From NCBI RefSeq assembly GCF_012848855.1, contig NZ_CP051630.1, forward strand, positions 785,501 through 849,500: a stretch of DNA of 64,000 nt, read 5' to 3'. Below, in pieces: positions 5,463 to 46,321 of the stretch (its first letter is position 1; the number at the start of each line of letters is the position of its first letter). The DNA comes from Pyruvatibacter mobilis. GTDB lineage: Bacteria; Pseudomonadota; Alphaproteobacteria; CGMCC-115125. A program made the position numbers and the translations under genes. The notes below the pieces were generated by a model that was not told the DNA's origin, searched no databases, and saw nothing but the letters and a program-made list of their open reading frames with translations.

Positions 5463-5493
5463 AAAAGGGGCGTCCGGCCGGGCGCCCCTTTTT
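5463..5493 (+). terminator. Rho-independent terminator after metH
   Basis: AAAAGGGGCG (5463-5472) pairs with CGCCCCTTTT (5483-5492) around a 10-nt loop and runs into a T-tract. It lies 27 bp after the metH stop and just before the convergent dioxygenase gene. Confidence 0.85.
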
Positions 5494-5503
5494 GTTGTCG
5501 GGA

Positions 5504-6445
5504 TCAGGCTGCCTTGGGCATGGCCCGGTGGCGGGTAATGCGACCCTCCACCGGCGTCACGGCAGTAACACTCCCGCGCTCGGCGAGAAAGTGCGGGCGG
5601 GGGGAGGTGGCTGCAAACGGCTCGGTGACCTGGTTCGACATCGCGTTGTAGACGAAGAAGGCATTGGAGCGCGGGTCCGGCGTGATGTTGCCATTGGAGC
5701 CATGCAGGGTGTTGCAGTCGAACAGTACCACGGTGCCGGCCTTGCCTGTCGCGGGCACGATGCCTGCCTCGTCGGCCAGCCGGGTCAGCGTGTGCTGATC
5801 CGGTACGCCGATCTCCTGCTTGCGCAAGGAGGTGCGGTAATTGTTCTCCGGTGTTTCGCCGCGGCACTGAATGAAATTCCTGTGTGATCCGGGGATCAGC
5901 ATCAGCGGGCCATTGAGGGGTGTGTTGTCGGTCAGCAGGATCGAGGCGGAAATCGTGCGCATGCGCGGCAGGCCGTCCTCGGTGTGCCAGGTTTCGAAGT
6001 CAGAGTGCCAGTAGAATTCCTGTCCGCCGAAGCCCGGCTTGTAGTTGAGGCGTGACTGATAGACATAGACATCATCGTCCAGGAGATGCCGGATGATGCG
6101 CGAGATGCGGCCATCGGCAGCCAGACGATGGAACAGTGCGTTTTGTGCATGAATACGGAAGATCGACCGCACGAGGTCTTGCTTCGGTTCGCGCACCACG
6201 GTTTCGTCTTCCAGGCCCGACGGATCATTGAGCAGGCTGGCCATCTCGGTCTTGAGGGCTGCCACTTCCTCGGCATCGAAAAGGTTACGCAGCACCAGAA
6301 AGCCATCGCGCTCAAAAGCTGCGTGCTGTTCACGGGTCAGCGGGGCGTGCGCGTGCCAGGGGGCGTAGGCGATTGCGTCCTGGCGCGGGAGAGTTTCGGC
6401 GGTCGTGCCTTGCCGGGACGGGTACGCATCGCGGATGATCGACAT
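5504..6445 (-). CDS. ectD: Ectoine hydroxylase-like Fe(II)/2-oxoglutarate dioxygenase
   Basis: A 313-residue PhyH-superfamily oxygenase. The stretch YWHSDFETWHTEDGLPRMR contains the HxD iron motif (H147, D149) and the extended signature typical of EctD; the distal iron histidine is H248 in TLHGSNGN. These positions are nearly the same as in characterised EctD proteins. EctD converts ectoine to 5-hydroxyectoine, a compatible solute. The usual ectABC synthesis genes are not adjacent, so the gene is an orphan here, and its substrate is inferred from the signature. It is divergent from a PLP-dependent dehydratase. Start ATG 6445 lies after AGAGAGGA. Confidence 0.82.
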   Translation of the reverse strand: MSIIRDAYPSRQGTTAETLPRQDAIAYAPWHAHAPLTREQHAAFERDGFLVLRNLFDAEEVAALKTEMASLLNDPSGLEDETVVREPKQDLVRSIFRIHAQNALFHRLAADGRISRIIRHLLDDDVYVYQSRLNYKPGFGGQEFYWHSDFETWHTEDGLPRMRTISASILLTDNTPLNGPLMLIPGSHRNFIQCRGETPENNYRTSLRKQEIGVPDQHTLTRLADEAGIVPATGKAGTVVLFDCNTLHGSNGNITPDPRSNAFFVYNAMSNQVTEPFAATSPRPHFLAERGSVTAVTPVEGRITRHRAMPKAA

Positions 6446-6530
6446 ATCGTTCCTCTCTCAGTTGGCCGGCATGGTGTCTGGAATTCCAGAGCCGGGCTAT
6501 CAGGGGCAGTCAGGAAGGGGAGGCCCGGAA

Positions 6531-7517
6531 GTGGCCCAGGCAACGGATGTGCAATTCGCGGATGTGGAGGCCGCTGCGCGGGGATTGGCGGGCAACGCGG
6601 TGCGGACGCCGCTGGTGCGCAATGCGGTGCTTGATGCGCGGCTTGGCGGGCGCGTCTTTCTCAAATGTGAGAGCCTTCAGCATATCGGTGCCTTCAAGTT
6701 CCGTGGGGCTTTCTGGGCCCTTGCCTGCCTTGACGACGATGTGCGCTCCCGTGGCGTGGTAGCCTGGTCGAGCGGCAACCACGCTCAGGGCGTGGCGATG
6801 GCGGCGCAGCGGTTCGGTGTGCCTACCACCATCGTGATGCCGCATGACGCGCCCGCCCTCAAGCGGGACAGGACGCGGCGCTTCGGGGCCGAGGTGGTAG
6901 GGTATGACCGTGCCACCGAAAGCCGGGAGGACATCGCCTGTGCCATCGCTAACAGGGAAGGGCGGGCGGTTGTTCCACCCTTCGATCACCCGCATGTCAT
7001 CGCGGGTCAGGGCACGGTGGGGCTTGAGATCGTGCAGCAACTCACAGAGCTGGGCGAGACACCGGACCAGGTGGTGGTGCCCTGTGGCGGCGGCGGGCTG
7101 ACAGCGGGTGTGGCAACGGCGATGAAACATCTGCACCCGGCCGCGCGCATCTATATCGCCGAGCCTGAAGGGTTCGACGACACCACGCGGTCGCTGCGGT
7201 CCGGCCAGCGGGAGAAATCCGTGCCCGGCGCATCATCCATCTGTGACGCGCTGCTTGTGGAGACGCCGGGCGAGCTCACCTTTGTCATCAATCACCGGCT
7301 GGTGGCAGGCGGCATGGCTGTGGGGGACGAGGAGGTGAGGGCGGCAATGCGCTTTGCCTTCACCGAGCTCAAACTCGTGCTTGAGCCGGGCGGGGCCATT
7401 GCGCTTGCGGCGCTGCTGGCAGGGCGCCTTGAAACGAAAGGGGCCTGCACCGTCGCCGTACTGAGCGGCGGCAATGCAGACCCCGGTCTATTTTCGGAGA
7501 TCGTGTCGGCGGATTAG
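6531..7517 (+). CDS. PLP-dependent threonine/serine dehydratase family protein (possibly EutB-like)
   Basis: A 328-residue fold-type II PLP enzyme. The Schiff-base lysine is in HIGAFKFRGA (about residue 57), the asparagine loop is SSGNHAQG, and the phosphate-binding loop is CGGGG. The ACT domain of biosynthetic IlvA is absent, so it belongs with catabolic threonine/serine dehydratases and with EutB of hydroxyectoine degradation. I start it at GTG 6531 because AGGAAGGGGAGG lies 8 bp before it and family members begin here; upstream in-frame starts have no such site. The divergent ectD-like neighbour makes a hydroxyectoine-related role possible, but the other eut genes are not present. Its last bases overlap the convergent cheZ-like gene. 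Confidence 0.75.
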   Translation: MAQATDVQFADVEAAARGLAGNAVRTPLVRNAVLDARLGGRVFLKCESLQHIGAFKFRGAFWALACLDDDVRSRGVVAWSSGNHAQGVAMAAQRFGVPTTIVMPHDAPALKRDRTRRFGAEVVGYDRATESREDIACAIANREGRAVVPPFDHPHVIAGQGTVGLEIVQQLTELGETPDQVVVPCGGGGLTAGVATAMKHLHPAARIYIAEPEGFDDTTRSLRSGQREKSVPGASSICDALLVETPGELTFVINHRLVAGGMAVGDEEVRAAMRFAFTELKLVLEPGGAIALAALLAGRLETKGACTVAVLSGGNADPGLFSEIVSAD

Positions 7518-8029
7518 CCGAACAGGGCGTCCACGGCAGCCTGGTCGATACCTTCGCCTTCCTTGGCGGGGCCATTGAGCAGGTGGGCGTCGGGGCGGGT
7601 GTCGCCCTCATATTCGCCCAGCAGGTCGCCGGTGGCGCGCTCCAGTTCCTTCAGGACGGCAACAACCTTGCTTATGCGCTGGCCGGTGATGTCCTGGAAC
7701 GAGCAGGCGGTAAAGATCTCGGCTGTCAGTTCACCGATGATTTCAGCTTCGGCCATGGCGGCAGGGCTGCCATCGTCAAGTGCTGCCACGCGGGTGGCGA
7801 CACCATCCATGGTTTCAGCGGCTTCCAGAATGGCGGACGTTGCGCCCTCGGTGGCGGCGACGATGGCGTCGAGCTCGCCGGTGGCTTCTTCAACGCGTGC
7901 ACCCGTCGTTGCGGGATCTGACAGCGAAGCGATTTCCTTGCGCGTCGTGGCGATGCTATTACTCATCGCCTCGAGGTGAGCGCGGATTTTTGCGAGTTTT
8001 TCCTCAGCGCTGTTCTTGCTCTGCGGCAT
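7514..8029 (-). CDS. cheZ: Short CheZ-family protein phosphatase
   Basis: A 171-residue, mostly helical protein. ACSFQDITGQRISKVV (about residues 110-125) matches the CheZ active-site helix, where an Asp and a Gln dephosphorylate CheY-P; both are present. The C-terminus IDQAAVDALFG resembles the CheY-binding tail of CheZ. It is shorter than E. coli CheZ (214 aa), mainly in the N-terminal half. The ATG at 8029 has AGGA 8 bp upstream and is preferred over an upstream TTG. It would end phosphorelay signalling by a CheY-type response regulator. No other chemotaxis genes are adjacent. Confidence 0.75.
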   Translation of the reverse strand: MPQSKNSAEEKLAKIRAHLEAMSNSIATTRKEIASLSDPATTGARVEEATGELDAIVAATEGATSAILEAAETMDGVATRVAALDDGSPAAMAEAEIIGELTAEIFTACSFQDITGQRISKVVAVLKELERATGDLLGEYEGDTRPDAHLLNGPAKEGEGIDQAAVDALFG

Positions 8030-8103
8030 CACGAACGTCCTGTTGTTTCCCAAGTTCAAGGGCCAGTGTGCCGAAGCGAAGTTTCCAAATAATTGAGACA
8101 GCC

Positions 8104-8721
8104 ATGGTTGATTTACCTTTGGACATAAGCGCCGTTAAGGGTTTTCTGGCGCAGGCCGAAGGCGAGGCGCTGTATGAAAGTGCGCGGAAATCCGCCGCGC
8201 TCGGGCCGGTGCTGGAAATCGGCAGCTATTGCGGCAAGTCCACCGTTTACCTTGGCCTCGGTGCACGCGAAGGCGGCGGGCAGGTTCTGGCGGTGGATCA
8301 TCATCGCGGATCGGAGGAGAACCAGCCCGGGCAGATGTTCCATGACCCGGACCTGGCGGACGGCCATGGCGGGATTGATACGCTGCCGCATTTCCGCAAG
8401 ACGATGCGGGATGCGGGCCTTGAGGACGTGGTGATCCCGGTCGCAACGTCGGCCCGGCATTTTGCGCATGTGTGGCAGCAGCCGCTGGGCATGGTGTTCA
8501 TCGATGGCGGGCATACGCTGGATGCGGCGCTTGCGGATTACCGCCTCTATGCGCCCAAGGTCGCGCCGGGCGGCATCCTGGCGATCCACGATGTTCATCC
8601 GGACCCGGAAACAGGCGGGCGGCCGCCTTATGAGGTCTATGAGCTGGCGCTCGCCTCGGGGCTGTTCAAAGGGCTAGCGCTTGTTGAGACGCTGGCGCTG
8701 CTTGAGCGTCTCGACGCCTGA
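8104..8721 (+). CDS. Class I SAM-dependent methyltransferase (Methyltransf_24 type)
   Basis: A 205-residue cytosolic protein with the Rossmann motif LEIGSYCGKSTVYLG (about residues 37-51), an acidic motif II (VLAVDHH) and the FIDGGHT and GGILAIHDVH motifs typical of Methyltransf_24 enzymes related to macrocin and small-molecule O-methyltransferases. The long upstream reading frame is not used: ATG 8104 gives the full domain. Its last 48 bp overlap the 3' end of the convergent QW-motif gene. It forms a group with the following GT4 and methyltransferase genes and may act on the same surface molecule, but the acceptor is unknown. Confidence 0.78.
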   Translation: MVDLPLDISAVKGFLAQAEGEALYESARKSAALGPVLEIGSYCGKSTVYLGLGAREGGGQVLAVDHHRGSEENQPGQMFHDPDLADGHGGIDTLPHFRKTMRDAGLEDVVIPVATSARHFAHVWQQPLGMVFIDGGHTLDAALADYRLYAPKVAPGGILAIHDVHPDPETGGRPPYEVYELALASGLFKGLALVETLALLERLDA

Positions 8722-9807
8722 CACTTCCGGCAGGGTGTGATCCACCAGCGCGTTGCAGGCAGCTGTCGTCTGGGTGATGGCATCGGCTGCGAGGATCACG
8801 GCCCCGGCGGTCCAGGCCGGCTTCTCGGCGGGCCAGGGCTGGTTCACTTCCGTCTGCAGGCCCATCCAGTAGGCGCCTTCGTCGTCGCGCTGCTGGTGCT
8901 GCCAGGCGAGCATCTGTTCGGCGCGCTTGCGGTCACCCATGGAGAGCAGGGCCATGCACAGCTCGGCGGATTCAGCGACGGTGATCCACGGCTCATGCAC
9001 CACGCAGCGGCAACCGACGCCGTCCTGCACGAACTCGTCCCAGCGGGAGGCGATCTTGGCGCGGGCGGCATCACCCGTCAGCACACCGCCGAGGACCGGG
9101 TAGTACCATTCCATGGAGAAATGATCCTTCGGGTCCCAGGTGCGGTCGAAGCGGTGGGGTTTGGTGCGCAGGGCATCGCCCAGGGCCTCGCGGGAGGCGA
9201 CCCACAGGCGGGCATGATCGTCATGGCCCAGGGTGGCGGCGATGTGGGCTGCGTGCTCGAAGCTCTTGTGGATCGAGCAGGAGGCGGTGATCAGCGCGTC
9301 GTCCGGCGTGTCGGTGTCGCGGGCGGCCCAGCGGATGTCGCCATGCTCGGTCTGGTGATCGACGATGAAGTGGAAGGCGCGCTCCAGCGTCGGCCAGAAC
9401 TCTTCCAGAAAGCCGCGGTCTTCCGTCAGCAGGTAGTGGTGCCAAAGGCCGGTGGCGATATAGGCGGCGCAATTTGTATCGCGCTCATAGGTGCCGGCTT
9501 CCTCGTCGCCGCCGGTATAGCGCTGCTCTTCCTCGTCCATGGGAACGGCAGAGCCCATCTGCATCCACCAGGAGCCGTCTTCAAGCTGGGTGTCGATGAG
9601 GTGGCGATAGGCCTTCACGGCTTCTTCGCGGTAGCCCAGCACGTCCAGACCCATGGCTGCTTCTACATGGTTCCACGGGTCGAAGACGCCGCCGTCGAAC
9701 CAGGGGATCGAGCCGTCATCCCGCTGCAGGCTGAGAATGCGGCGCACGGCGCCGTCGAAATAGCCTTCGGGGATACGCGAGCCTTTGGTGAGGTGCAGGG
9801 TACTCAA
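8674..9807 (-). CDS. QW-motif alpha/alpha toroid protein (prenyltransferase/squalene cyclase-like)
   Basis: A 377-residue protein with repeated QxxDGS(I/W) segments (LQRDDGSIPW near residue 30, QLEDGSWW near residue 75, WHQQRDDEGAYW near residue 305), the QW-type motif of terpene cyclase and prenyltransferase alpha-toroids. No DxDD protonation motif or signal peptide is seen, so it is probably not a squalene-hopene cyclase. Databases usually label such proteins prenyltransferase; a six-hairpin glycosidase-like function is an alternative. It is the last gene of a minus-strand set GT4 - methyltransferase - QW protein with short gaps, and converges on another methyltransferase. Function unknown. 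Confidence 0.6.
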   Translation of the reverse strand: MSTLHLTKGSRIPEGYFDGAVRRILSLQRDDGSIPWFDGGVFDPWNHVEAAMGLDVLGYREEAVKAYRHLIDTQLEDGSWWMQMGSAVPMDEEEQRYTGGDEEAGTYERDTNCAAYIATGLWHHYLLTEDRGFLEEFWPTLERAFHFIVDHQTEHGDIRWAARDTDTPDDALITASCSIHKSFEHAAHIAATLGHDDHARLWVASREALGDALRTKPHRFDRTWDPKDHFSMEWYYPVLGGVLTGDAARAKIASRWDEFVQDGVGCRCVVHEPWITVAESAELCMALLSMGDRKRAEQMLAWQHQQRDDEGAYWMGLQTEVNQPWPAEKPAWTAGAVILAADAITQTTAACNALVDHTLPEVSGVETLKQRQRLNKR

Positions 9808-34270: not shown

Positions 34271-34456
34271 GGTGCGTTCCAGCGCGCCTAACCCCCCGGA
34301 AGCCTTGGGTTTTCAACAGTTGGGTGACAGGGGCGTTGAGCCTTCATTAACCATTCGGGCGCACTGTCGGTCACACAGGTGAATGACAGGCTGCCGCCCA
34401 TGCGCCCTGCCTTTGGCGGGGGTGTGGCGGCGCCGGCTCGAAAGGCGTTGAGGCCA

Positions 34457-35536
34457 ATGACCCTTCAGGATTCGAAACTCCCGCAGGCGGGTGCCGCGGG
34501 TGCCGTGCCGACAGGCAAGAGCGGCGGTCCGGCGCGCGTGTGCGTTGTCGGCGGCGCGGGCTATGTGGGCTCGGTACTGGTGCGCACGCTGCTGGCGCGC
34601 GGCTATGGCGTGACGGTGCTCGACAATTTCCTCTACGACCACGCGCTGTCGGTGGAAGGCATCTATGACGAACCGGGCTACCGGCTGGTCAACGGTGATC
34701 TGCGCCGGGCTGACGTGGTGGCGCAGGCGCTCGATGGCGTGGACCACGTGGTGCTGCTGGCGTCGCTGGTGGGCGATCCGATCTCGAAGAAATATCCGGA
34801 GCTGACACGCTCGGTGAACCTTGACGGCAGCCAGGCGCTGTTTGCTGCACTGGACACCCATGACATCGACCGCTTCGTGTTCACCTCCACCTGCTCGAAT
34901 TACGGGCTGATGGACGACAACACGCTGGCGGATGAGACCTCGAGCCTGAACCCCTTGTCGCTTTATGCGGAAACCAAGGTGGGGTTTGAACAATTCGTGC
35001 TCGGACAATTGGACAGCCACAAGGTGTGTCCGACGCTGCTGCGTATCGCTACGGCGTTCGGCATGAGCCAGCGCATGCGGTTTGATCTCACGGTCAACGA
35101 GTTTGGTCGGGCGATGGCGATGAAGACGCCGCTGGATGTCTATGACAAGGACACCTGGCGGCCCTACGCCCATGTGCGCGACATCTCGGGTGCCATCATC
35201 AAGGTGCTGGAAAGCGACAGCGCCAAGGTGAAGGGCGAGGTCTTCAATGTGGGTTCGGACGACAACAACTACACCAAGGCGATGCTGGTGGAGGAATTCC
35301 TGCGCCATGTGGATGCGCCGGTAGCGTTCGTGGAGAAGGGGGCAGATGCGCGCAACTACCGTGTGTCGTTTGCCAAGATCCGCACTCAGCTCGGCTTTGA
35401 GGCGCAGCACTCGGTGGCGGAATTCGTGCCGCAGCTCATCAGCGCCGTGCAGGACGGGCTGTATGGCCGGGCGGACACGCTGAAGACCTATTACGGCAAT
35501 TACCAGGTGCGCGACGGGGTGCCGGACACGCTGTGA
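34457..35536 (+). CDS. NAD-dependent sugar-nucleotide epimerase/dehydratase (SDR), first gene of the nonulosonate operon
   Basis: A 359-residue extended SDR. The dinucleotide motif is VVGGAGYVGSVLVRTLL (about 30-46), and the catalytic YxxxK is YAETK. The serine motif reads TSTCSNYG, not the TDE of RmlB-type 4,6-dehydratases, so a dehydratase role is uncertain. ATG 34457 has GAGG 5 bp before it; GTG 34379 would add 26 proline/alanine-rich residues. It heads a run of coupled genes that make a nonulosonic acid and probably shapes the hexosamine precursor, as LegB does in legionaminic acid synthesis. Confidence 0.78.
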   Translation: MTLQDSKLPQAGAAGAVPTGKSGGPARVCVVGGAGYVGSVLVRTLLARGYGVTVLDNFLYDHALSVEGIYDEPGYRLVNGDLRRADVVAQALDGVDHVVLLASLVGDPISKKYPELTRSVNLDGSQALFAALDTHDIDRFVFTSTCSNYGLMDDNTLADETSSLNPLSLYAETKVGFEQFVLGQLDSHKVCPTLLRIATAFGMSQRMRFDLTVNEFGRAMAMKTPLDVYDKDTWRPYAHVRDISGAIIKVLESDSAKVKGEVFNVGSDDNNYTKAMLVEEFLRHVDAPVAFVEKGADARNYRVSFAKIRTQLGFEAQHSVAEFVPQLISAVQDGLYGRADTLKTYYGNYQVRDGVPDTL

Positions 35537-35584
35537 CCGGCGCTGTGCAATTCTTCAGGCCATCCGTGTAGGGAGCGTTAAGTG

Positions 35585-36817
35585 ATGTCAGGGGCCGCGG
35601 CTGAAGATTTTTCCAACACATCCGGACCGGGCATGAGCAAGCCCGGCCTGCCGGAGCAGGTGGTGGCCGCGGTGCGCGCCGTGCTGGGCGACGGAGCCGG
35701 GCCGTTTCCGCTGCATGAGCCCGAGATCGGGCCGCTTGAAGCGCAATACATCAATGAGTGCGTCGGCTCCGGCTGGGTTTCCACGGTGGGGCCGTTCGTC
35801 GACCGGCTGGAAGCGGCGCTAGGCGAATTGTGTGGGGTCGAGAACGTGTTCGCCACGTCCGCCGGCACGGCGGCATTGCATCTGGCGCTGGCAGCACTTG
35901 GTGTTGGTGAGGGGGACGAGGTGATCGTCCCGTCGCTGTCCTTCGTCGCGACTGCGAATGCCGTGAGCTATACGGGGGCGATCCCGCATTTCGCGGATGC
36001 GGATGAATGGACGCTGGGCCTTGATCCGCGCGCGCTGAAGAAACACATGGACGAGGCCTGCGTGATGCAGGCGGGTGACTGCCGCAACAAGGCAACGGGG
36101 CGGCGGATTGCGGCCATCGTGGTGATGCACGCGTTTGGCCACCCGGCCGAGATGGACGCGCTGCAGGACGTGGCCGACCAGTGGGGTGTGCCGCTGGTGG
36201 AGGATGCCGCGGAAGCGCTGGGCTCCTCCTATGAGGGCAAGCCCGCGGGCAGCCTGTCGCGCATTGCGGCTCTGTCGTTCAACGGCAACAAGATCGCGAC
36301 CGCCGGCGGCGGCGGGGCGGTGCTGACCAATGACGCTGAGCTTGCCGCGCGGGTGCGGCATCTGGGGTCGACGGCCAAGCTGCCGCACAAATGGGAATAT
36401 GTGCACGACGAGACCGGCTTCAATTATCGCATGCCGAGCCTTAACGCGGCGCTGCTGCTGGCGCAGGTGGAGCGGCTTGATGATTTCATCAAGCGCAAGC
36501 GGCGGCTGGCGGCACGCTATGCGGCGAGCTTCTGCTCAGTGCAGGGGGCGGACTTCATGGGGCAGCCGCCGGGGGCGCGGTCCAATTACTGGCTCAACAC
36601 GATCCGCCTTGCAGTGGCGACGCGGCCGGAGCGGGACGCGGTGCTGGAGGCGCTGATCTCCGACGGCATCCTGGCGCGGCCCGTGTGGGAGCCTTTGCAC
36701 AATCTGCCGATGTTCCGCACCTGTCCGACGGCGGACCTGTCGGTGACCGAGCGGCTGTCCGGTCAGCTCATCAATTTGCCGTCGAGCCCCAAGCTGCAGG
36801 ATTTGCTGCATGATTGA
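35585..36817 (+). CDS. DegT/DnrJ/EryC1-family sugar aminotransferase, LegC-like
   Basis: A 410-residue PLP aminotransferase. The Schiff-base lysine is in SFNGNKIATAGGGG (about residue 237), and the DegT family segments ATSAGTAALHLALAALGVGEGDEVIVPSLSF and EDAAEALGSSYEG are clear. The N-terminal FPLHEPEIGPLEAQY and CVGSGWVSTVG segments match the LegC-type group linked with NeuB-like synthases. It would aminate the 4-keto sugar nucleotide. ATG 35585 follows GGGAG; GTG 35582 is also possible. It overlaps the next gene by 8 bp. Confidence 0.85.
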   Translation: MSGAAAEDFSNTSGPGMSKPGLPEQVVAAVRAVLGDGAGPFPLHEPEIGPLEAQYINECVGSGWVSTVGPFVDRLEAALGELCGVENVFATSAGTAALHLALAALGVGEGDEVIVPSLSFVATANAVSYTGAIPHFADADEWTLGLDPRALKKHMDEACVMQAGDCRNKATGRRIAAIVVMHAFGHPAEMDALQDVADQWGVPLVEDAAEALGSSYEGKPAGSLSRIAALSFNGNKIATAGGGGAVLTNDAELAARVRHLGSTAKLPHKWEYVHDETGFNYRMPSLNAALLLAQVERLDDFIKRKRRLAARYAASFCSVQGADFMGQPPGARSNYWLNTIRLAVATRPERDAVLEALISDGILARPVWEPLHNLPMFRTCPTADLSVTERLSGQLINLPSSPKLQDLLHD

Positions 36818-38033
36818 GGTGGACCGGCATATCGCGATCATCACCACCACGCGGGCGGATTGGGGCATCCTGCATCCGCTGGCCGAGGCGCTGCGCGATG
36901 ACAGGCAGGTAAGGCTCTCGATCATCGCGGGCGGGGCGCATCTCTCCAACCGGCACGGCATGACGATCTCCGAGATCGAAGAGGCGGGCTTTGACATCGC
37001 CGCGCGTGTGCCGATGCCGCTCAATGACGACAGCGCGCAGGGCATGGGCTATGCGCTTGGGTCCGCGTGCTGGGGCTTTGCCGAAGCGCTGGGTGATCTG
37101 ACGCCGGATCTCGCCATCGTGCTGGGTGACAGGTTTGAAATTCTCGGGGCCGCGGCAGCGGCGTTGATGGCGCGGGTGCCGCTTGTGCATATTCACGGCG
37201 GGGAAGCCAGCGAGGGGCAGATCGACGAACAGGTGCGCCATGCGGTGACCAAGATGGCGCATCTGCATTTTCCCGCAGCGCAGGCCTATGCGGACCGGAT
37301 CATCGCCATGGGCGAGGACCCGGCGCGGGTGTTCGCGGTGGGGTCGCTGGCGGTCGAGACCATCCGTAACCAGACGATTGCCGACTGGGCGTCGATTGCC
37401 GCCGAGCTGGGGCTGGACCCTGAGCGTGACGTGCTGGCAGTGACCTATCATCCGGTGACGCTGGCAGACGACCATGGAGTTGCGCCGGTGCTGGCGCTGG
37501 GGGAGGCGCTGGCGCTGTTCCCGGAGATGCAGATGGTGATTACCGGCGTTAATGCCGATCCGGGCAGCAGTGCGGTCGCCGAAAGCATGCACCGGCTGGC
37601 TGAAAACCATCCGGCCGCGGTGATGGTGCCGTCGCTGGGGCACAGGCGCTATCTGTCGCTGGTGAAGGCGGCGAAGGCTGTTGTGGGCAATTCGTCGAGC
37701 GGCATCATCGAAGCGCCGGCACTTGGCACGCCGACCGTAAATATCGGACCGCGGCAGGACGGGCGGCTGAGGGCTGCCAGCGTGATCGATTGCGCGGAAA
37801 CACCGAACGCCATTGCGGGCGCGCTGACGCAGGCGTTGTCGCCGGCGTCGCAGTCACTCGCGGCGCGCTGCGAGACGCCCTATGGGGGCGAGGATACATG
37901 CCGGCAGATGGTAACGGCGCTCAAGACAGTGCCGCTGGACGGCCTGCTCATCAAGAAGCTGCGCGTGGCGGATGACATCCGCAGCGAGGCGGACATGGAT
38001 ATTGGCTTCAAACCGCTGGAGCTGGTGCGATGA
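36810..38033 (+). CDS. neuC: Hydrolysing UDP/GDP-N-acetylhexosamine 2-epimerase, NeuC/LegG-like
   Basis: A 407-residue GT-B-like epimerase that releases the nucleotide and inverts C2. Family motifs are TTTRADWGILHPL (about 13-25), LGDRFEILGAA, VHIHGGE and the C-terminal GNSSSGIIEAP. This is the NeuC branch, not the WecB branch. In sialic acid synthesis the product is ManNAc; in legionaminic acid synthesis it is a 2,4-diacetamido trideoxy-mannose. The LegC-like aminotransferase upstream favours the second. Its stop overlaps the neuB start (ATGA). Confidence 0.88.
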   Translation: MIEVDRHIAIITTTRADWGILHPLAEALRDDRQVRLSIIAGGAHLSNRHGMTISEIEEAGFDIAARVPMPLNDDSAQGMGYALGSACWGFAEALGDLTPDLAIVLGDRFEILGAAAAALMARVPLVHIHGGEASEGQIDEQVRHAVTKMAHLHFPAAQAYADRIIAMGEDPARVFAVGSLAVETIRNQTIADWASIAAELGLDPERDVLAVTYHPVTLADDHGVAPVLALGEALALFPEMQMVITGVNADPGSSAVAESMHRLAENHPAAVMVPSLGHRRYLSLVKAAKAVVGNSSSGIIEAPALGTPTVNIGPRQDGRLRAASVIDCAETPNAIAGALTQALSPASQSLAARCETPYGGEDTCRQMVTALKTVPLDGLLIKKLRVADDIRSEADMDIGFKPLELVR

Positions 38034-39106
38034 GTGACCATGTGACCGTGATCGCCGAAGCAGGCGTCAACCACAATGGCTCGCTGGAGACAGCGCTTGA
38101 GCTTGTGGCGGCGGCGGCAGAGGCGGGGGCTGACATCGTCAAGTTCCAGACCTTCAAGGCCGAGGCGCTGGCGGCAGCGTCTGCACCCAAGGCGGTCTAT
38201 CAGGCGCGCGAGACGGGGGGTGAGCAGTCACAGCTCGACATGCTGCGGGCGCTGGAACTGCCCGAGGCGCATCACCACGAGATTGCGGCGGCCTGCGCGG
38301 CTGCGGGGATTGAGTTCCTGTCGACGGCATTTGATACCGAGAGCCTCAAATTCCTGGTCGGCGAGATGGGCATCAGGCGCATCAAGATCCCGTCCGGCGA
38401 ACTGACCAATGCGCCGCTGGTGCTGGAAGCCGCGCGGAGCGGTCTGCCGATGATCCTGTCGACAGGCATGGCGACGCTGGGTGATGTTGAAGCCGCGCTC
38501 GGCGTTGTGGCCTTCGGCATGGTGGGCGGCAATGAGGCACCGGGGCGTGAGGCGTTCGAGGCGGCATATGCCAGCACGCAGGGACGCGACGCGCTGCGGG
38601 ACAAGGTCACGGTGCTTCACTGCACGACGGATTATCCGACGCCGCCCGAGGCTGTGAACATGCGCGCCATGGCGACCATGGGGCGCGCCTTCGGCGTCAA
38701 GACGGGGTATTCGGACCATACGGCGGGGCTGGCGGTGCCGGTGCTGGCCGTGGGGCAGGGGGCGACCCTGATCGAGAAGCATTTCACGCTCGACCGCGCC
38801 ATGCCGGGGCCGGACCACAAGGCCTCGCTGGAGCCGGATGATCTCGGCACCATGATTGCGATGATCCGTGAGGCGTCGGCAGCGCTCGGCTCGCCGGTGA
38901 AGGCACCGGGGGAGGCTGAACGCAAGAACATCATCGTTGCACGCAAGTCTCTGGTGGCGGCGCAGGCGATTGCGGCAGGGGATACTTTCACCGAGGCCAA
39001 TCTCACGGTGAAGCGGCCCGGGGATGGGCGCACACCGATGGATTACTGGGCTGTGGTCGGGACGCGGGCGACGCGGGCCTATGGACCGGATGAGGCAGTG
39101 GAATGA
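38030..39106 (+). CDS. neuB: Nonulosonic acid synthase, NeuB/LegI-like
   Basis: A 358-residue enzyme that would condense the mannosamine-type hexose with phosphoenolpyruvate. It has the TIM barrel motif IAEAGVNHNGSLETA at the start, KIPSGELTNAPL and STGMATL, the loop HCTTDYPTPPEAVNMRAM and TGYSDHT, and a C-terminal SAF (antifreeze-like) domain (about 290-350). The CTTDYP form of the loop is closer to LegI than to NeuB (CNSTYP) or PseI (CTSSYP), as I remember these families. Coupled at both ends to its neighbours by ATGA overlaps. Confidence 0.9.
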   Translation: MSDHVTVIAEAGVNHNGSLETALELVAAAAEAGADIVKFQTFKAEALAAASAPKAVYQARETGGEQSQLDMLRALELPEAHHHEIAAACAAAGIEFLSTAFDTESLKFLVGEMGIRRIKIPSGELTNAPLVLEAARSGLPMILSTGMATLGDVEAALGVVAFGMVGGNEAPGREAFEAAYASTQGRDALRDKVTVLHCTTDYPTPPEAVNMRAMATMGRAFGVKTGYSDHTAGLAVPVLAVGQGATLIEKHFTLDRAMPGPDHKASLEPDDLGTMIAMIREASAALGSPVKAPGEAERKNIIVARKSLVAAQAIAAGDTFTEANLTVKRPGDGRTPMDYWAVVGTRATRAYGPDEAVE

Positions 39107-39756
39107 CGCATCAGGCCGGTGACACTGCTGAACGTGACGTGGTCCTGATCGGGGCCGGCGGGCACGCGCATGTGGTGGCCGACATGCTGGCGGCGCTGGG
39201 ACGGCCGGTGCGCGGCTTCATCGCGCCGACGGACAGCACCGTCATCGAGGGTATCGACTGGCTGGGCACGGATGACGTGCTGGCGGAGATCCTGCCCGGC
39301 ACGGCTGACCTTGCCATGGGTGTGGGGTCGGCGGGGGATGTCTCGCTCCGGCGGCGGATGTTTGACGGGCTGCACTGGGCGGGCCATCTGCTGCCGGCGC
39401 TGGTGCATCCGGCAGCGGCCGTCTCAGGCGGTGTAAGCATCGCGCCGGGCGTGCAGGTGATGCTTGGTGCCTGCGTGCAGGCGGGGGTCGAGATCGGCTG
39501 CAACGCCATCATCAATACGGGTGCGATTGTCGATCATGATTGCCGGATCGGGGACCATGCGCATGTGGCACCGGGTGCTGTGCTGTGCGGTGACGTGACC
39601 GTTGGGGATGGCGCGCATGTGGGCGCAGGCGCGCGGGTGATCCAGGGCATTTCCATCGGCGAGGACGCGCTGGTGGCCGCCGGGGCCGTGGTGATTTCCG
39701 ATGTGGCGCCGGGCGCGCGCGTGGCGGGCGTGCCGGCGAAGGAGATGCGCGGATGA
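39103..39756 (+). CDS. neuD: NeuD/PglD-family sugar O- or N-acetyltransferase
   Basis: A 217-residue protein. The N-terminal Rossmann-like part has VVLIGAGGHAHVVADML, and the C-terminal left-handed beta helix carries hexapeptide repeats with the catalytic histidine region NTGAIVDHDCRIGDHAHVAPGAVLCG. This is the PglD/NeuD family. In the legionaminic pathway LegH of this family acetylates the 4-amino sugar. It starts in an ATGA overlap with neuB and ends in another with the nucleotidyltransferase. Confidence 0.88.
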   Translation: MTHQAGDTAERDVVLIGAGGHAHVVADMLAALGRPVRGFIAPTDSTVIEGIDWLGTDDVLAEILPGTADLAMGVGSAGDVSLRRRMFDGLHWAGHLLPALVHPAAAVSGGVSIAPGVQVMLGACVQAGVEIGCNAIINTGAIVDHDCRIGDHAHVAPGAVLCGDVTVGDGAHVGAGARVIQGISIGEDALVAAGAVVISDVAPGARVAGVPAKEMRG

Positions 39757-40826
39757 CGCGGGCAAAGTTCCAGGATGTGTGCGTGACGCCGGAGACGGCG
39801 CTGCAGGACGTAATCCGCGGCATCACCGAGACCGGCAAGCAGATTGCGCTGGTGGTGGACGAGGCGGGCAGGCTGCTCGGCACCATCACCGATGGTGACA
39901 TCAGGCGCGGCATCCTGCGCGGGCTGGCGCTGGATGCACCGGCGCGGGACGTGATGAAGGAAAACCCCATCGTGGCGGGGCCGGACCTCGCGCGCGATGT
40001 GCTGCTGCGTTACATGCGCGACGGGCGGGTCAAGCAATTGCCCATCGTCGATGGCGACGGCATGCTGGTGGGGCTTGAATTGCTGGACGACATGCTGTCC
40101 GCGCCCAAGGCCGAGAACTGGGTCGTCATCATGGCGGGGGGGCTGGGCACGCGGCTTCGTCCGATCACGGAAGACATTCCCAAGCCGCTGGTGCCCGTGG
40201 GTGGGCGGCCGGTGCTGGAAACCATCATCGAGCAGCTGGCAGGGCAGGGCTTCACCCGCATTTTCCTGGCGGTGAATTATCTGGCTGAGCAGGTGCGGGA
40301 TCATTTTGGGGATGGGTCGCGCTGGGGTGTGCGGATTGATTATCTGGAAGAAGAAACCCGCATGGGGACGGCGGGCGCGCTGACGCTGCTGCCGCAGCGG
40401 CCGTCGGCGCCTTTCCTGGTGATGAACGCGGACCTCGTGACGGATATCGATTTCCGGCGGCTGCTGGGGTTCCACGCGGACCAGACGGCGGATGCCACTA
40501 TGTGCGTGCGCGAATACAAGTTCCAGGTGCCCTATGGCGTGGTCGAGACCAAGGGCAACCGCATTACCGCGCTGACCGAGAAGCCGACGCACAGCTATTT
40601 CGTCAATTCCGGCATCTATGCGCTGGAGCCGGAAGTGCTCGACCTTGTGCCGCGCGGGCACTTCTATGACATGACGACCCTGTTCGATGATCTGCTGGCG
40701 CGGGACGGCCACGGGGTGGTGTTTCCGGTGCATGAATACTGGATCGATATCGGCCAGTTCGATGATCTGGAAAAGGCGCGGACGGAGTTCCAGGCGGTGT
40801 TCACGCCGAAGGACAAGCAGGCCTGA
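39753..40826 (+). CDS. ptmE: CBS-domain nucleotidyltransferase, PtmE-like
   Basis: A 357-residue two-part protein. Residues about 1-115 hold a pair of CBS motifs (LGTITDGDIRRGILRG and LPIVDGDGMLVGLELLDD), and residues about 120-350 hold a sugar-phosphate nucleotidyltransferase domain with IMAGGLGTRLRPITEDIPKPLVPVGGRPVLE. In Campylobacter jejuni PtmE has this same architecture and makes GDP-glucosamine for legionaminic acid. Its presence is the best reason to think the operon uses GDP-linked precursors. Its stop shares a base with the next start (TGATG). Confidence 0.85.
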   Translation: MTRAKFQDVCVTPETALQDVIRGITETGKQIALVVDEAGRLLGTITDGDIRRGILRGLALDAPARDVMKENPIVAGPDLARDVLLRYMRDGRVKQLPIVDGDGMLVGLELLDDMLSAPKAENWVVIMAGGLGTRLRPITEDIPKPLVPVGGRPVLETIIEQLAGQGFTRIFLAVNYLAEQVRDHFGDGSRWGVRIDYLEEETRMGTAGALTLLPQRPSAPFLVMNADLVTDIDFRRLLGFHADQTADATMCVREYKFQVPYGVVETKGNRITALTEKPTHSYFVNSGIYALEPEVLDLVPRGHFYDMTTLFDDLLARDGHGVVFPVHEYWIDIGQFDDLEKARTEFQAVFTPKDKQA

Positions 40827-41524
40827 TGGCGCGGCTGGCGACCATCCTGGCCCGCGGCGGATCAAAAGGTGTGCCGGGCAAGAATGTGCGGCTGATCGCG
40901 GGTGCGCCGCTGATTGCCCACAGCGTGCGCCACGCGTTAGAGGCGGGGCTGTTCGACGCCATTGCTGTTTCCAGCGACGCAGACGACATTCTGGAAGCAG
41001 GCCGGGCCGCAGGGGCCACGCATCTTGTGGAGCGCCCGGCGCAGATGGCAACGGACGAGGCGGGCAAGCTGCCGGCGATCCGCCATTGCGTGGCGGAGGT
41101 GGAAGCGCTGGTGGGCACTAGGTTTGAGACCATCACTGATCTTCAGCCCACCTCGCCAACGCGCCTGGCCGATGACATTCGCGGGGCTGTGGACATGCAG
41201 ACGCGGCTGGGCGTTTCCAACGTGATCTCGGGCAGCGAGGCCAAGTCGTCGCCCTACTTCAATCTGGTGGAAGAGCGGGCGGACGGGTCCGTCGGCCTGT
41301 CCAAGGCACCGGCGGGTGACGTGGTGCGCCGCCAGGATGCGCCGCGCTGTTTTGACCTCAATGGCTCTATCTATGTGTGGCGGCGGGATGCGCTGATGGA
41401 GGGCGAGGGGCTGTGGTTCGCTGATACGCACCTCTATGAGATGCCGCCCGAGCGCTCCGTTGATATCGATACGGAGCTTGATTTCCGGTTTGCGGATTTC
41501 CTGATGTCGCAGGCCGGCGACTGA
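40826..41524 (+). CDS. neuA: CMP-nonulosonate synthetase, NeuA/LegF-like
   Basis: A 232-residue cytidylyltransferase that would activate the nonulosonic acid with CTP. The N-terminal ARGGSKGVPGKNVRLIAG motif, the TDLQPTSPTR motif and the C-terminal DIDTELDF segment are the standard NeuA features. It is shorter than bifunctional NeuA proteins and has no esterase domain. It is separated by 36 bp from the CMAH-like gene, which would then act on its CMP-sugar product. Confidence 0.9.
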   Translation: MARLATILARGGSKGVPGKNVRLIAGAPLIAHSVRHALEAGLFDAIAVSSDADDILEAGRAAGATHLVERPAQMATDEAGKLPAIRHCVAEVEALVGTRFETITDLQPTSPTRLADDIRGAVDMQTRLGVSNVISGSEAKSSPYFNLVEERADGSVGLSKAPAGDVVRRQDAPRCFDLNGSIYVWRRDALMEGEGLWFADTHLYEMPPERSVDIDTELDFRFADFLMSQAGD

Positions 41525-41560
41525 CAGGCGGCTGACGGGCGCGGATGCAAGGGGGATGAG

Positions 41561-43285
41561 ATGGACCTGATCGACCGGGGTGTGTTTTCCCGCAAGGCGC
41601 AGGCAACAGAGACCTGCCGGGTGGACCTGGCGGGTCTTGAGGCGGGCACGCATCAGACCGACGACATCATTTTCGCGCTGGATGAGGCGGGCCGGGTCGC
41701 CTGGGCCATCGACCGGGTGTGTGATCACGCGTCGGGCAAGCTGGTGCTCGATGCGGGCGGTGCGACGGCGACATGTCCGCTGCATGGCTGGCAACTGGAC
41801 CTGGCCAGCCGCCGCTACACCAATGCCCAGACGGGCAAGCACGCGCTGGACTTCACGGTGGAGGACGGCGTGCTGGCCTATGAACGCACGCATTTCGTGC
41901 TCGAGGCACCGGCGCGCCAGACGGAAATGTCTCCCGCGCCGATGACGGTGCGTTTCCTGGCCCATGCCTGCGTCGTGATCGACGTGGCGGGGCTGCGGGT
42001 GGTTACCGATCCGTGGCTGATGGGTCCGTGCTTCGTGACGGGCTGGTGGCATGCGGTGACGCCGCCGGAAGACGCGCTCGATGTGCTGAACTCCGCCGAT
42101 CTCGTTTATATCTCGCACAACCATCCGGACCACATGCATCGGGAGACCCTGGAGAAGCTGCGTCGCGACATGCCGATCATCGCGCCGGACTTTCCCTCGG
42201 GCTCCACCGTGGGGCCGCTGCGGGAGATGGGGTTCGAGACGGTGCATGCAGTGCAGTTCAACCATGTCTATGAGGTGGGGGAGACGGGCGGCCGCGTCTC
42301 CGTGCTGCAGGCCGGTGATTTCCGGGATGACAGCGGGCTGTGGGTTGAAGGCGGCGGCCACTCGGCGCTGCTGAGCGTGGACAGCAACAAGCTCAACAAT
42401 TTCGTGCTGCCGGAGGCGCCGGACATTCTGCTGACGGCCTTTGCGGGCGGGGCCAGCGGCTATCCCGTGACGTTCGACACGATGAGCGACGACGAAAAGC
42501 GCCGGGTGACGGCGCGCAACCGCGTGGCCGTGCGGGACATGGCGGAGCGCTATGTGCGCGAGGCCCGGCCCCGGGCTGTGATGCCCTATGCGGGGTTCTT
42601 CACCGAAGCAGCGCCGGAAGACGCGGGCACCAAGGCGCTGAACGCGAAGAATTCCAGTGCCGAGATCTGTGAGTATCTCGGCAGGAAGATGCCGGAGATC
42701 GTTTTTGCGGACCCGCTTAAGACGGACATCGCGGTGTTCGACGGGGACGGGATCGAGCTGTCAGCCTTTTCGGGCGACCGGCTGTTTGATGTGACGCCTG
42801 CCTATTGCCAGGGGTACATCTCCCGCATGGTGGAGGAGGGGCAGGACCATCAGGGGGATGCGCTCAAATCCTATTTCGAGGCGGCGTCATTTACGGATGA
42901 TCTCATTGTCTATGTCGCGCCGATGACGCGCGATTTCAGCAGCTATGTGGCCGAGGGCGTGGTGGTGGATTTCACCGGCGATGCCCCGAGAGCAGACGTG
43001 CTGACGGCGCAAGAGGTGGCTGACCGGTTTGCAGCGGAGCGGGGGGAGAATGGGCCGCGGTGTCTTCTCATCCGTGTGCGGAAGGACAGCCTGTGGCATG
43101 TGGTGGCCAACGGGTTGCCGTGGGAGGATCTGTCCATCGGCTTCCAATGTCGGGTGGACCGGGCGCCGGACGTATACAACTCGGATTTCTGGTTCCACTT
43201 CACCAATGTGCATATCGGTGAGGCGGTGGTGCCGCGCCTAGAGGCGGCGCAGGGTAACGTGCAGGCGGCTGTGGACATGTGCTGA
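41561..43285 (+). CDS. Rieske/MBL-fold protein homologous to CMP-N-acetylneuraminate hydroxylase (CMAH-like)
   Basis: A 574-residue protein, almost the length of mammalian CMAH (577). The N-terminal Rieske centre has all four ligands: CDH (C54, H56) and CPLH (C72, H75). A metallo-beta-lactamase fold follows with HNHPDH (186-191). Landmarks that match animal CMAH as I remember it are DPWLMGP with GWW, LVYISH, FAGGASGYPVTF, YAGFF and HVVANGLPWEDLSIGFQ, spread over the whole chain. CMAH hydroxylates the N-acetyl methyl group of CMP-Neu5Ac to give CMP-Neu5Gc. It is the last gene of the nonulosonate operon, 36 bp after the CMP-synthetase, with AAGGGGG before its ATG. The exact sugar is unproven. 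Confidence 0.75.
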   Translation: MDLIDRGVFSRKAQATETCRVDLAGLEAGTHQTDDIIFALDEAGRVAWAIDRVCDHASGKLVLDAGGATATCPLHGWQLDLASRRYTNAQTGKHALDFTVEDGVLAYERTHFVLEAPARQTEMSPAPMTVRFLAHACVVIDVAGLRVVTDPWLMGPCFVTGWWHAVTPPEDALDVLNSADLVYISHNHPDHMHRETLEKLRRDMPIIAPDFPSGSTVGPLREMGFETVHAVQFNHVYEVGETGGRVSVLQAGDFRDDSGLWVEGGGHSALLSVDSNKLNNFVLPEAPDILLTAFAGGASGYPVTFDTMSDDEKRRVTARNRVAVRDMAERYVREARPRAVMPYAGFFTEAAPEDAGTKALNAKNSSAEICEYLGRKMPEIVFADPLKTDIAVFDGDGIELSAFSGDRLFDVTPAYCQGYISRMVEEGQDHQGDALKSYFEAASFTDDLIVYVAPMTRDFSSYVAEGVVVDFTGDAPRADVLTAQEVADRFAAERGENGPRCLLIRVRKDSLWHVVANGLPWEDLSIGFQCRVDRAPDVYNSDFWFHFTNVHIGEAVVPRLEAAQGNVQAAVDMC

Positions 43286-43933
43286 GCGGGTGGTGGTGCG
43301 CTCGGTGCGCACCCGCTCGATCAGCTCGAAGCTGTCCGGCAGCTGGGCGTCGATCTTTTCCGGCGTGAAAAAGGACTGGAGCGTGCCTTTTTCATGCTCG
43401 GTGGTGATCACCTCTTCATGGTCGCCGCCGCCGATGAAATCACAGAAGAACAGGCCGCCCGGTTTCAGCACGCGGGCCAGTTCCACCATGCCGTCGCGGG
43501 CGATGGCGGTGGGCATGGAATCCAGCACCGCGTGGCTGATGATGCAGTCGAAGAAGGCGGTGTCATAGGGCAGGTCGCGGATGTCGGCCTGGATGATGCG
43601 GCTGTCCGGTGCAGCAAGCCCGCTCTTCCCCAGCCAGTCGCGCGCCACGGCAACGGCGCTGTCAGACAGGTCGAAGCCGTAGGGCTCAAAGCCGAAGGTG
43701 AGCGCCATATTGAGATGACGGCCGATGCCGCAACCGGCGTCGAGGAATTTCAGCCCCTCGGCGTTGGGCATCACATCGCGGAAGGTGTCGAGGCCCTGGC
43801 GCTGGCGCAGGTGGCGCGAGACGAACCGAACCACTTCCTCTTCCGGGTAGAAGACGAAGTTCTGCTTCTTGTCATAGGCGGTTTCCCAGGCGCTGCGGCG
43901 GGCGTCACTGTCCGGGGTGGGGGCGCTGGTCAT
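43238..43933 (-). CDS. Class I SAM-dependent methyltransferase
   Basis: A 231-residue enzyme with motif I LDAGCGIGRHLNMAL (about 66-80), motif II GFDLSD, ADIRDLPYDTAFFDC and RVLKPGGLFFCDF. The 3' end overlaps the end of the CMAH-like gene by 48 bp on the opposite strand, so the two converge tightly. ATG 43933 follows AGGA by 7 bp; GTG 43948 is less likely. It may modify a surface sugar or flagellin, but only proximity suggests this. Its first codons nearly repeat those of the next upstream gene. Confidence 0.8.
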   Translation of the reverse strand: MTSAPTPDSDARRSAWETAYDKKQNFVFYPEEEVVRFVSRHLRQRQGLDTFRDVMPNAEGLKFLDAGCGIGRHLNMALTFGFEPYGFDLSDSAVAVARDWLGKSGLAAPDSRIIQADIRDLPYDTAFFDCIISHAVLDSMPTAIARDGMVELARVLKPGGLFFCDFIGGGDHEEVITTEHEKGTLQSFFTPEKIDAQLPDSFELIERVRTERTTTRSAHVHSRLHVTLRRL

Positions 43934-44031
43934 GATCCGGTCCTGCACAGAAGGGAATCGCGGGAAGCTCAGTGTGAACCCTGCGGGGTGCAGTCCAAAG
44001 ACATGATTAAGGCGAGCGGGATGCCGGGCGG

Positions 44032-44358: not shown

Positions 44359-44714
44359 GGAACTGGCGGGGATCTCTTGAGGTTGCCGACACGCCTTATA
44401 TGGCCTGTTGGCGGGTGGGGCGAAAGGGCTGGAGCGCGACAGATTGACCTTTTGGCTGCCGGATCAGCAGGATTTCAGACAGCGGACGCGCGCCGGGGGC
44501 GGATCGGTTGATTTTGCGGGTGTTGAAATCACCCGGCGCTCCCTATATGACACGCTGTGCATGGGAAATATATTTAATCACTTCAAAATGATGTGAAAAC
44601 TGCCGTCGCGGCATCCCGGCACTTTGACCTCGGGCGCGCATAAGGGTATGTGCAGCGCCATATTTTTGTTCGGCGGGCGGCCATCAGCGTGCCCGGGTGA
44701 TGAAGGAAGAAGCC
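44359..44714. promoter_or_regulatory. Intergenic region upstream of fpr and of the chorismate mutase gene
   Basis: About 355 bp between divergent genes. The central part (44520-44600) is AT-rich compared with its surroundings. TTGACC (44624-44629) with TATGTG (44647-44652) 17 bp on is a possible promoter for fpr, about 65 bp before its start. A small TGCCG/CGGCA hairpin sits at 44601-44613. No gene or known riboswitch is seen. Confidence 0.35.
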
Positions 44715-45518
44715 ATGTCCCAGGCAGTTGAGGCGAAGGTGAACCCGAATGCGCCGACCGAGGAGGAAGTCCTCTCGGTGAAGCATTACACGGACCGCCT
44801 GTTCAAGTTCCGCATCACCCGCCCGTCTGCCTTCCGCTTCCGCTCCGGCGAGTTTGTGATGATCGGGCTGCCGGGTCCGAAGGGCAAGCCGATCATGCGT
44901 GCTTACTCCGTTGCGAGCCCCTCCTGGGACGACACGCTGGAATTCTTCTCGATCAAGGTGCCGGACGGCCCGCTGACCTCGATGCTGGGCGACATCAAGC
45001 CGGGCGACAAGGTGCTTTTGGGCAAGAAGCCGACAGGCACGCTGGTGCATGACGCGCTGTTGCCGGGCAAGCGGCTTTACATGTTCTCCACCGGCACGGG
45101 CATCGCACCGTTTGCGTCCGTCATGCGGGATCCTGAAACTTATGAGCGGTTCGAGCAGGTGATCCTCACCCATACGTGCCGCGAAGTGGCCGAGCTTGAA
45201 TATGGCAAAGAGCTGACCGAGGGGCTGAAGGACGATCCGCTGGTGGGCGAGATCGCGCCGCAGAAATTCGTTCACTATGGCTCGTGCACCCGCGAGGACT
45301 ATCCGTTCAAGGGGCGCATCACCGATCTCATCACCTCGGGCAAGCTGTTCGAGGATCTCGGCGTGCCGCCGCTGAACCCGGAGGAAGACCGGGTGATGAT
45401 CTGCGGGTCCATGGACATGCTCAAGGACACCAAGGAGCTGTGCGAGAAGGCGGGGCTGGTGGAAGGCTCCAACGCGACGCCAGCGACCTATGTGGTCGAG
45501 CGCGCTTTCGTGGGCTAG
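44715..45518 (+). CDS. fpr: Ferredoxin-NADP reductase, bacterial Fpr type
   Basis: A 267-residue flavoprotein. The FAD motif RAYSVAS (about 57-63), the NADP-binding STGTGIAPF and the ICGSMDML motif are clear, and the chain ends VVERAFVG as in class A bacterial reductases. It shuttles electrons between NADPH and ferredoxin or flavodoxin. AAGGA precedes ATG 44715; the frame to 44697 adds MMKEEA. It lies 1.4 kb from the Rieske-type CMAH-like gene and could feed it, but Fpr is common housekeeping. Confidence 0.93.
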   Translation: MSQAVEAKVNPNAPTEEEVLSVKHYTDRLFKFRITRPSAFRFRSGEFVMIGLPGPKGKPIMRAYSVASPSWDDTLEFFSIKVPDGPLTSMLGDIKPGDKVLLGKKPTGTLVHDALLPGKRLYMFSTGTGIAPFASVMRDPETYERFEQVILTHTCREVAELEYGKELTEGLKDDPLVGEIAPQKFVHYGSCTREDYPFKGRITDLITSGKLFEDLGVPPLNPEEDRVMICGSMDMLKDTKELCEKAGLVEGSNATPATYVVERAFVG

Positions 45519-45577
45519 GGCCTCCGGGCTAGACTGCCGACGACGATTTTCTCACTCATGTTGAAGGTGTGCCGCTG

Positions 45578-46321
45578 ATGGCCGTCACCCTGCTTTGCGC
45601 CGGTGAGATGCCGGAGGGCGAGGGCGTCCGCCTGCGTGAGCGGCTGGCGGAGCTGCGTGCTGTCCATGCGGCCGACCGGCAATTGCTGGCCCAGGGCGAC
45701 ATGGCGGGCACCGATGTGCTGGCCAAGAGCGAGCTGGTGCGTGAGCTGTCGAAGCAGGCGCATGGGGTGAGTGTCTCCGGCGGGGTAAGGCCCGAACTGG
45801 CCCCGGCGCTGGATGCGGCACTGATGGACACGGCGCTGTCCGAGTGGCGTACGGCGAAAGAGCCGAGGCGCCTGGGTCTCGCCATGGGGCGGGCCATTGC
45901 CTATTGCCTGGCAATGGACATGCGGTTTCCCGACATCGCCGGTGTGCCTGACGGCATGGCATTCGAGCTGCTGCGCAGTCTTGATGCGCCCATTGCGCTC
46001 AAGGGCGAGACCGGCGGTGTGGCGGTGGTGACCGCCGAAGAAGAAGCGCTGTCGGCGGAAGCTGTTGGCGTTGTGGCGCGCTCCGCTGCGATAGCGCAGC
46101 TTTGTGCCTCGGCCATCTCGCGGACAGTGACACGTCCTGAGGGTGAACTGACGGCGGAAGCCGTGTGGGATGCGCTGGGCGAGGGGGCGCGGGTGGCCTC
46201 TGCCTTGCGCTCTGGCGGGCATCTCAAATCAGCGGTACTGACCTTCCGCGGTCGCGGCCGGGCGATCGGCCCGATCGACGGCGACCGGCTGCTGCGCTTC
46301 GGTGTGTCCAACTGGCGCTGA
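45578..46321 (+). CDS. Conserved hypothetical protein beside fpr
   Basis: A 247-residue alanine-rich soluble protein. I recognise no domain, signal peptide or membrane helix. Predicted features are an N-terminal helical region (LRERLAELRAVHAADRQLLAQG), a middle part with MGRAIAYCLAMDMRFPDIAG, and a C-terminal GGHLKSAVLTFRGRGRAIGPIDGDRLLRFG. Codon use is like its neighbours, so it is a real gene. It follows fpr by 59 bp on the same strand and may share its transcript. Confidence 0.6.
   Translation: MAVTLLCAGEMPEGEGVRLRERLAELRAVHAADRQLLAQGDMAGTDVLAKSELVRELSKQAHGVSVSGGVRPELAPALDAALMDTALSEWRTAKEPRRLGLAMGRAIAYCLAMDMRFPDIAGVPDGMAFELLRSLDAPIALKGETGGVAVVTAEEEALSAEAVGVVARSAAIAQLCASAISRTVTRPEGELTAEAVWDALGEGARVASALRSGGHLKSAVLTFRGRGRAIGPIDGDRLLRFGVSNWR

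Follow-up and report, generated by a model that had tools for sequence, protein, structure and literature searches.

A CMAH-like Rieske/metallo-beta-lactamase-fold gene at the end of a nonulosonate operon in Pyruvatibacter mobilis: a candidate N-acetyl hydroxylase

An eight-gene nonulosonate operon in the alphaproteobacterium Pyruvatibacter mobilis ends in a gene whose product resembles CMAH, the enzyme that in animals turns Neu5Ac into Neu5Gc with cytochrome b5 as its external electron donor. The bacterial product is best read as an enzyme that hydroxylates an N-acetyl group of a CMP-nonulosonate, so that an N-glycolyl sugar results, and from protein likeness and gene context we infer that this is probably its chemistry. 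The window, i.e., the whole stretch of DNA that was analyzed, is 64,000 nt long, and coordinates without a locus or genome label are positions within it.

The CMAH-like gene and its protein

The open reading frame has the start, end, strand and length that the original prediction gave it. The features of the gene and its protein are as follows.

41549..41555, + strand: possible ribosome-binding site (AAGGGGG) of the CMAH-like gene, read from the sequence
41561..43285, + strand: CMAH-like Rieske/metallo-beta-lactamase (MBL)-fold protein, 574 aa, operon gene 8 (ORF, Pfam, five-homologue alignment)
41681..41806, + strand: Rieske [2Fe-2S] domain core, residues 41-82 (Pfam Rieske, 21.7 bits, curated cut-off 20.3)
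41948..42277, + strand: MBL-fold domain core, residues 130-239 (Pfam Lactamase_B_3, 42.7 bits, above the curated cut-off)
42116-42133, + strand: HNHPDH motif, residues 186-191, inside the MBL-fold domain, invariant in five homologues
42317..42382, + strand: GDFR(D/E)DSG...VDS block, residues 253-274, invariant in five homologues and aligned with the corresponding CmlA stretch
43112..43207, + strand: C-terminal signature block, residues 518-549, GLPWEDLSIGFQCRV...FWFHFTN, unchanged or almost unchanged across the five homologues

The frame is not a chance one, since in the sister species G001 an orthologue with 76% identity occupies the corresponding position and the two copies differ by a dN of 0.17 against a dS of 1.34. 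A dN/dS of about 0.13 shows that the gene is under purifying selection. Its GC content is that of its operon.

The protein has the domain order of CMAH, Rieske and then MBL fold, as was originally proposed, with both Pfam matches above their curated cut-offs. The four Rieske ligands, C54/H56 and C72/H75, and the HNHPDH motif are present as claimed, and the ligands, like the motif, are identical in all five homologues of the alignment. The landmarks DPWLMGP, GWW, FAGGASGYPVTF and the GLPWEDLSIGFQ block, which had been read as shared with mammalian CMAH, are all found in the translation. End-to-end likeness to the mammalian enzyme had also been predicted, and the protein is 30% identical over 540 aa (207 bits, E 6e-64) to a provisional mouse CMAH sequence that does not come from a database; the likeness holds to the extent that this reference is accurate. 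A profile built from five bacterial proteins scores 269.6 bits with the same provisional sequence, over profile positions 42-551, against 79.8 bits with an MBL-only protein of the own genome, the highest among other MBL proteins, and 71.5 bits with a NamH-like protein from Nocardia. Searches of the PDB and of phage, plasmid, viral and prokaryote collections yielded no animal or algal CMAH, and a motif search of papers likewise gave none. With a provisional reference sequence, these similarities are a strong lead, not proof, that the gene is a bacterial member of the CMAH family.

Among solved structures, a PDB sequence search places the di-iron monooxygenases 8a90 and CmlA closest to the MBL part (E 1.3e-5 to 1.5e-7 for CmlA). 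D253 and D274 are candidate metal ligands. D253 stands where hydrolases carry a metal-ligand His, and CmlA presumably has a Glu at the matching position; the resemblance to CmlA is suggestive, but the alignment could be shifted here by one residue or a few, and nothing is built on it. An AlphaFold model, a check proposed with the original prediction, was built from a three-row alignment and is poor (pLDDT 53.7). Its Foldseek matches are to the general MBL fold only, and it is too weak to show the metal geometry or to confirm the metal site.

The operon and its counterparts in other genomes

The seven genes upstream of the CMAH-like gene, and a convergent gene at its 3′ end, are as follows.

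34379..35536, + strand: gene 1, NAD-dependent sugar-nucleotide dehydrogenase/epimerase-like SDR, in the LegB place (Pfam Epimerase)
35582..36817, + strand: gene 2, LegC-family aminotransferase (TIGR04181, 481 bits, cut-off 420)
36810..38033, + strand: gene 3, hydrolysing 2-epimerase, NeuC/LegG (TIGR03568, 407 bits, cut-off 236)
38030..39106, + strand: gene 4, nonulosonate synthase, NeuB/LegI (TIGR03569, 454 bits, cut-off 399.65)
39103..39756, + strand: gene 5, NeuD/LegH-type hexapeptide N-acetyltransferase (TIGR03570, 199.5 bits, cut-off 160.8)
39753..40826, + strand: gene 6, CBS-domain sugar-1-phosphate nucleotidyltransferase, PtmE-like (Pfam NTP_transferase and two CBS)
40826..41524, + strand: gene 7, CMP-nonulosonate synthetase, NeuA/LegF type (Pfam CTP_transf_3)
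43238..43948, - strand: convergent methyltransferase gene (Pfam Methyltransf_11)

Genes 1 to 7 (34379-41524) are chained by overlaps or short gaps, and the CMAH-like gene follows the CMP-nonulosonate synthetase gene after 36 bp (41525-41560), the distance originally reported. The LegC, NeuC/LegG, NeuB/LegI and NeuD/LegH models, by which a legionaminic operon is recognized, all score above their cut-offs. The closest PDB entry to gene 3 is the GDP/UDP-diacetylbacillosamine 2-epimerase 5xvs (270 bits), and the bifunctional UDP-GlcNAc 2-epimerase/ManNAc kinase is less close (160 bits). These similarities point to a legionaminic-type, di-N-acyl CMP-nonulosonate as the operon product. For gene 7 the closest solved structure is the CMP-Neu5Ac synthetase 1eyr (103 bits).

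The exact sugar is uncertain because another gene stands in the LegB place. With the LegB model, the cut-off of which is 475, gene 1 reaches 80 bits, and a model search of the genome found no LegB above that cut-off. The closest solved structure to gene 1 is 6vo6 (150 bits), the structure of the C. jejuni dehydrogenase Cj1427. Each of the three species compared has a 6vo6-like SDR in the LegB slot. The product might be a 9-hydroxy form and not 6-deoxy-derived. A separate PF02719 dehydratase elsewhere in the genome (C1:1420991) could act as a stand-in for LegB.

Two further genes lie downstream of the operon. One (44697-45518) encodes a FAD/NAD oxidoreductase of the ferredoxin-reductase type, which is also found in a sister species without the CMAH-like gene (G003). 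The other (45569-46321) encodes a 250-aa protein without a Pfam family, whose gene neighbours both chorismate mutase and the nonulosonate operon in two bacterial families (the second at L041:12991-13821).

The position of the CMAH-like gene as the last in its operon, a point of the original prediction, is kept in the sister species G001, where the complete set of eight genes recurs in unchanged order. The sister species G003 has kept the seven sugar genes and lacks the CMAH-like gene. Its interval between neuA and the chorismate mutase gene holds, on the other strand, genes for an FkbH-domain protein (280 bits, cut-off 147), a 377-aa protein with no family match, a methyltransferase and a polysaccharide deacetylase (L040:4424-9310). 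G001 and G003 are 95-98% identical in three operon proteins, closer to each other than either is to the window, and homology between them ends at the end of neuA and at the chorismate mutase gene (6026-7799 of G001 vs 4022-9316 of G003). The convergent methyltransferase of the window is 60% identical to that of the G003 cassette (L040:7640-8335). The simplest reading is that the site after neuA is a sugar-tailoring slot with exchangeable content, and that the CMAH-like gene was present in the ancestor of the window species, G001 and G003 and was then lost in G003. The G003 cassette probably serves as an alternative decoration of the same nonulosonate.

The family is rare, with five full-length copies in three alphaproteobacterial lineages. 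In the class sample a full-length copy is found in 4 of 385 genomes, the window's own included; no further one was found in a phylum sample of 399 genomes, and none in 396 genomes from the phylum of Algoriphagus. Two Parvibaculaceae/Rhodobiaceae genomes have copies at 36-38% identity that adjoin secA, outside a sugar operon. In one of them (G245, locus L001) a NeuC-NeuB-PtmE-NeuA operon adjoins the same chorismate mutase neighbour, and a NeuD-LegC pair is found at a separate place; the other (locus L002) has a NeuD-LegC pair, and no NeuB was seen in this genome, which is 70% complete. A 1.1-Mb alphaproteobacterial genome (G334) has a full-length copy at 36% identity. Its contig also carries PseB, a PseG-like gene and NeuB at a distance of about 5-12 kb and, further along at about 28-30 kb, another set made up of NeuA-NeuB-NeuC. 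The base rate for NeuB above the strict cut-off is 13 of 142 relatives, and it rises to 66 when every NeuB-family match is counted. Co-occurrence of homologues with nonulosonate genes, raised in the original prediction, is thus seen in three lineages, and gene context makes the association well supported for this small number of lineages.

Relatives that have the MBL part only were also recorded. One of 479 aa in the own genome (L063:9136-11451; C1 about 3.233 Mb) comes right after the gene for a PhyH-like dioxygenase; this second glycan locus also holds rmlA/rmlB-like and formyltransferase-like genes. Others, in two other alphaproteobacteria (L069:1693-8657 and L070:6533-14435), belong to a conserved gene cluster that also encodes a NeuB-like synthase, an HMGL-like aldolase, a PhyH-like protein and an aldo-keto reductase.

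Proposed reaction and alternatives

The upstream genes would build and CMP-activate a legionaminic-type nonulosonate bearing N-acetyl groups, and the CMAH-like enzyme would hydroxylate the methyl of one of these on the CMP-sugar, giving N-glycolyl. By analogy with CMAH, the N-acetyl group at C5, rather than one at C7, is the most likely target. The N-glycolyl sugar would then be transferred to a surface glycan, the presumed place of its display. Electrons may pass from an external donor to the Rieske cluster and on to a pair of metal ions, probably both iron, in the MBL-fold domain. This metal site would activate O2 as that of CmlA-type monooxygenases does. The wider proposal is of a dedicated bacterial N-glycolyl nonulosonate pathway, leading for example to CMP-Leg5Gc7Ac or, via the 6vo6-like gene, to a new 7-amino sugar in N-glycolyl form; the hydroxylase would occupy a tailoring slot whose content can be exchanged. 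For this proposal we consider the balance to be even.

The alternative that survives best, although we think it unlikely, is a CMAH-family oxygenase with other chemistry, which might hydroxylate a ring carbon or the methyl at C9, or oxidize an N-acyl group other than acetyl. To our knowledge, the CMAH family has been tested biochemically on CMP-Neu5Ac only, and the bacterial branch is found in a different substrate pathway (LegC, NeuD, PtmE). Identity to the provisional CMAH sequence is only about 30%, and in G003 the slot is filled by different genes, apparently for other tailoring. However the most conserved blocks are common to the provisional CMAH sequence, and CMAH and NamH both act on N-acetyl methyl groups of nucleotide sugars. 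N-acetyl hydroxylation is the preferred reading.

A UlaG-like MBL-fold hydrolase, in which the Rieske domain would be regulatory or functionless, would account for the general MBL fold that is all Pfam and Foldseek show, and MBL-only relatives are numerous. Such a hydrolase is nevertheless improbable, given Rieske ligands that do not vary in five proteins and closest solved structures by sequence that are di-iron oxygenases. Slightly less probable still is a passenger or decaying gene without part in the sugar pathway. The patchy distribution, the absence from one closely related species and the secA locus in another lineage would fit this, but the low dN/dS, the operon-typical GC, the possible ribosome-binding site and the same-place orthologue in G001 speak against it. 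Very improbable is a NamH-type peptidoglycan enzyme, a UDP-MurNAc hydroxylase standing by chance beside the sugar operon: NamH/Rv3818-like proteins are related and have Rieske, MBL and SCP2-like parts (PMC6481270), but their domain order is different, the SCP2_Rv3818 domain is not matched here, the profile gives 71.5 bits against 269.6 for the provisional CMAH sequence, and the gene is inside a nonulosonate operon whose slot in G003 holds apparent sugar-tailoring genes. The plain hydrolase, the decaying gene and NamH were each weighed and are rejected on this evidence.

Comparison with known systems

The novelty of a bacterial CMAH was overstated in the original prediction. A 2018 survey (Peri et al.) is reported to have described CMAH-like sequences in algae and in some microbes including Helicobacter, without investigating their enzymatic function (cited in PMC8227644 and PMC6288428). 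NamH/Rv3818, of mycobacteria and relatives, is moreover a known bacterial N-acetyl hydroxylase, which acts on UDP-MurNAc and turns N-acetyl into N-glycolyl on a nucleotide sugar (PMC6481270). What is new is the evidence from the operon and the slot swap for a bacterial nonulosonate substrate class, and this is good genetic evidence. Reviews state that prokaryotes do not naturally make Neu5Gc (PMC7845648) and that its synthesis is beyond all known microbes (PMC6481270); the bacterium described here probably makes an N-glycolyl sugar of a kind not credited to microbes. A literature search, with most subscription journals outside its coverage, found no paper on N-glycolyl Leg or Pse and none that links CMAH to a bacterial nonulosonate operon.

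With an intact operon that ends in a CMAH relative and a sister species without the gene, the question of a bacterial N-glycolyl nonulosonate is directly testable. If the reading is true, no N-glycolyl sialic-acid-like sugar would have been demonstrated as a prokaryotic product before this one, and it would offer a clue to the origin of eukaryotic CMAH, the history of which is disputed between alga-to-animal transfer and an earlier animal gene (PMC8227644). A bacterial CMAH could also help in obtaining the missing structure of the family, none being present in the PDB copy searched.

The provisional CMAH sequence and the bacterial protein have in common the order of Rieske and then MBL fold, the CxH/CxxH and HxHxDH motifs, DPWLxGP, GWW, FAGGASG, NxKN and a C-terminal FW block. 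They differ in setting: the gene described here is in a bacterial legionaminic-type operon, and its likely substrate is a di-N-acylated bacterial nonulosonate, not CMP-Neu5Ac. The 2018 survey reportedly includes prokaryotic CMAH-like genes as well, to which operon context, slot swap and three alphaproteobacterial lineages are added here.

CmlA and 8a90 are MBL-fold oxygenases as well, but the match is confined to the MBL part and no Rieske domain is matched; the substrate of CmlA is an amino-acid substrate. NamH/Rv3818 likewise has MBL and Rieske domains in one protein, and differs in its MBL-SCP2-Rieske order and in a substrate of peptidoglycan rather than nonulosonate type. The Rv3818/NamH-like protein of Nocardia farcinica (L071:2956-4518) displays MBL, SCP2_Rv3818 and Rieske domains in that order, whereas the CMAH-like protein has its Rieske domain at the N-terminus and no Pfam match to SCP2_Rv3818. 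This suggests that NamH and CMAH are two N-acetyl hydroxylase families made from similar parts in rearranged order.

In Plesiomonas the Leg genes are in the order LegB-LegC-LegG-LegI-LegH-PtmE-(PtmF)-LegF (PMC4481668). The operon of the window has the same relative order of LegC, LegG, LegI, LegH, PtmE and LegF as the CMP-legionaminic acid pathway of Campylobacter and Plesiomonas, and differs from it in having a 6vo6-like SDR for LegB, in being without PtmF, PtmA and GlmU, and in the addition of the CMAH-like gene.
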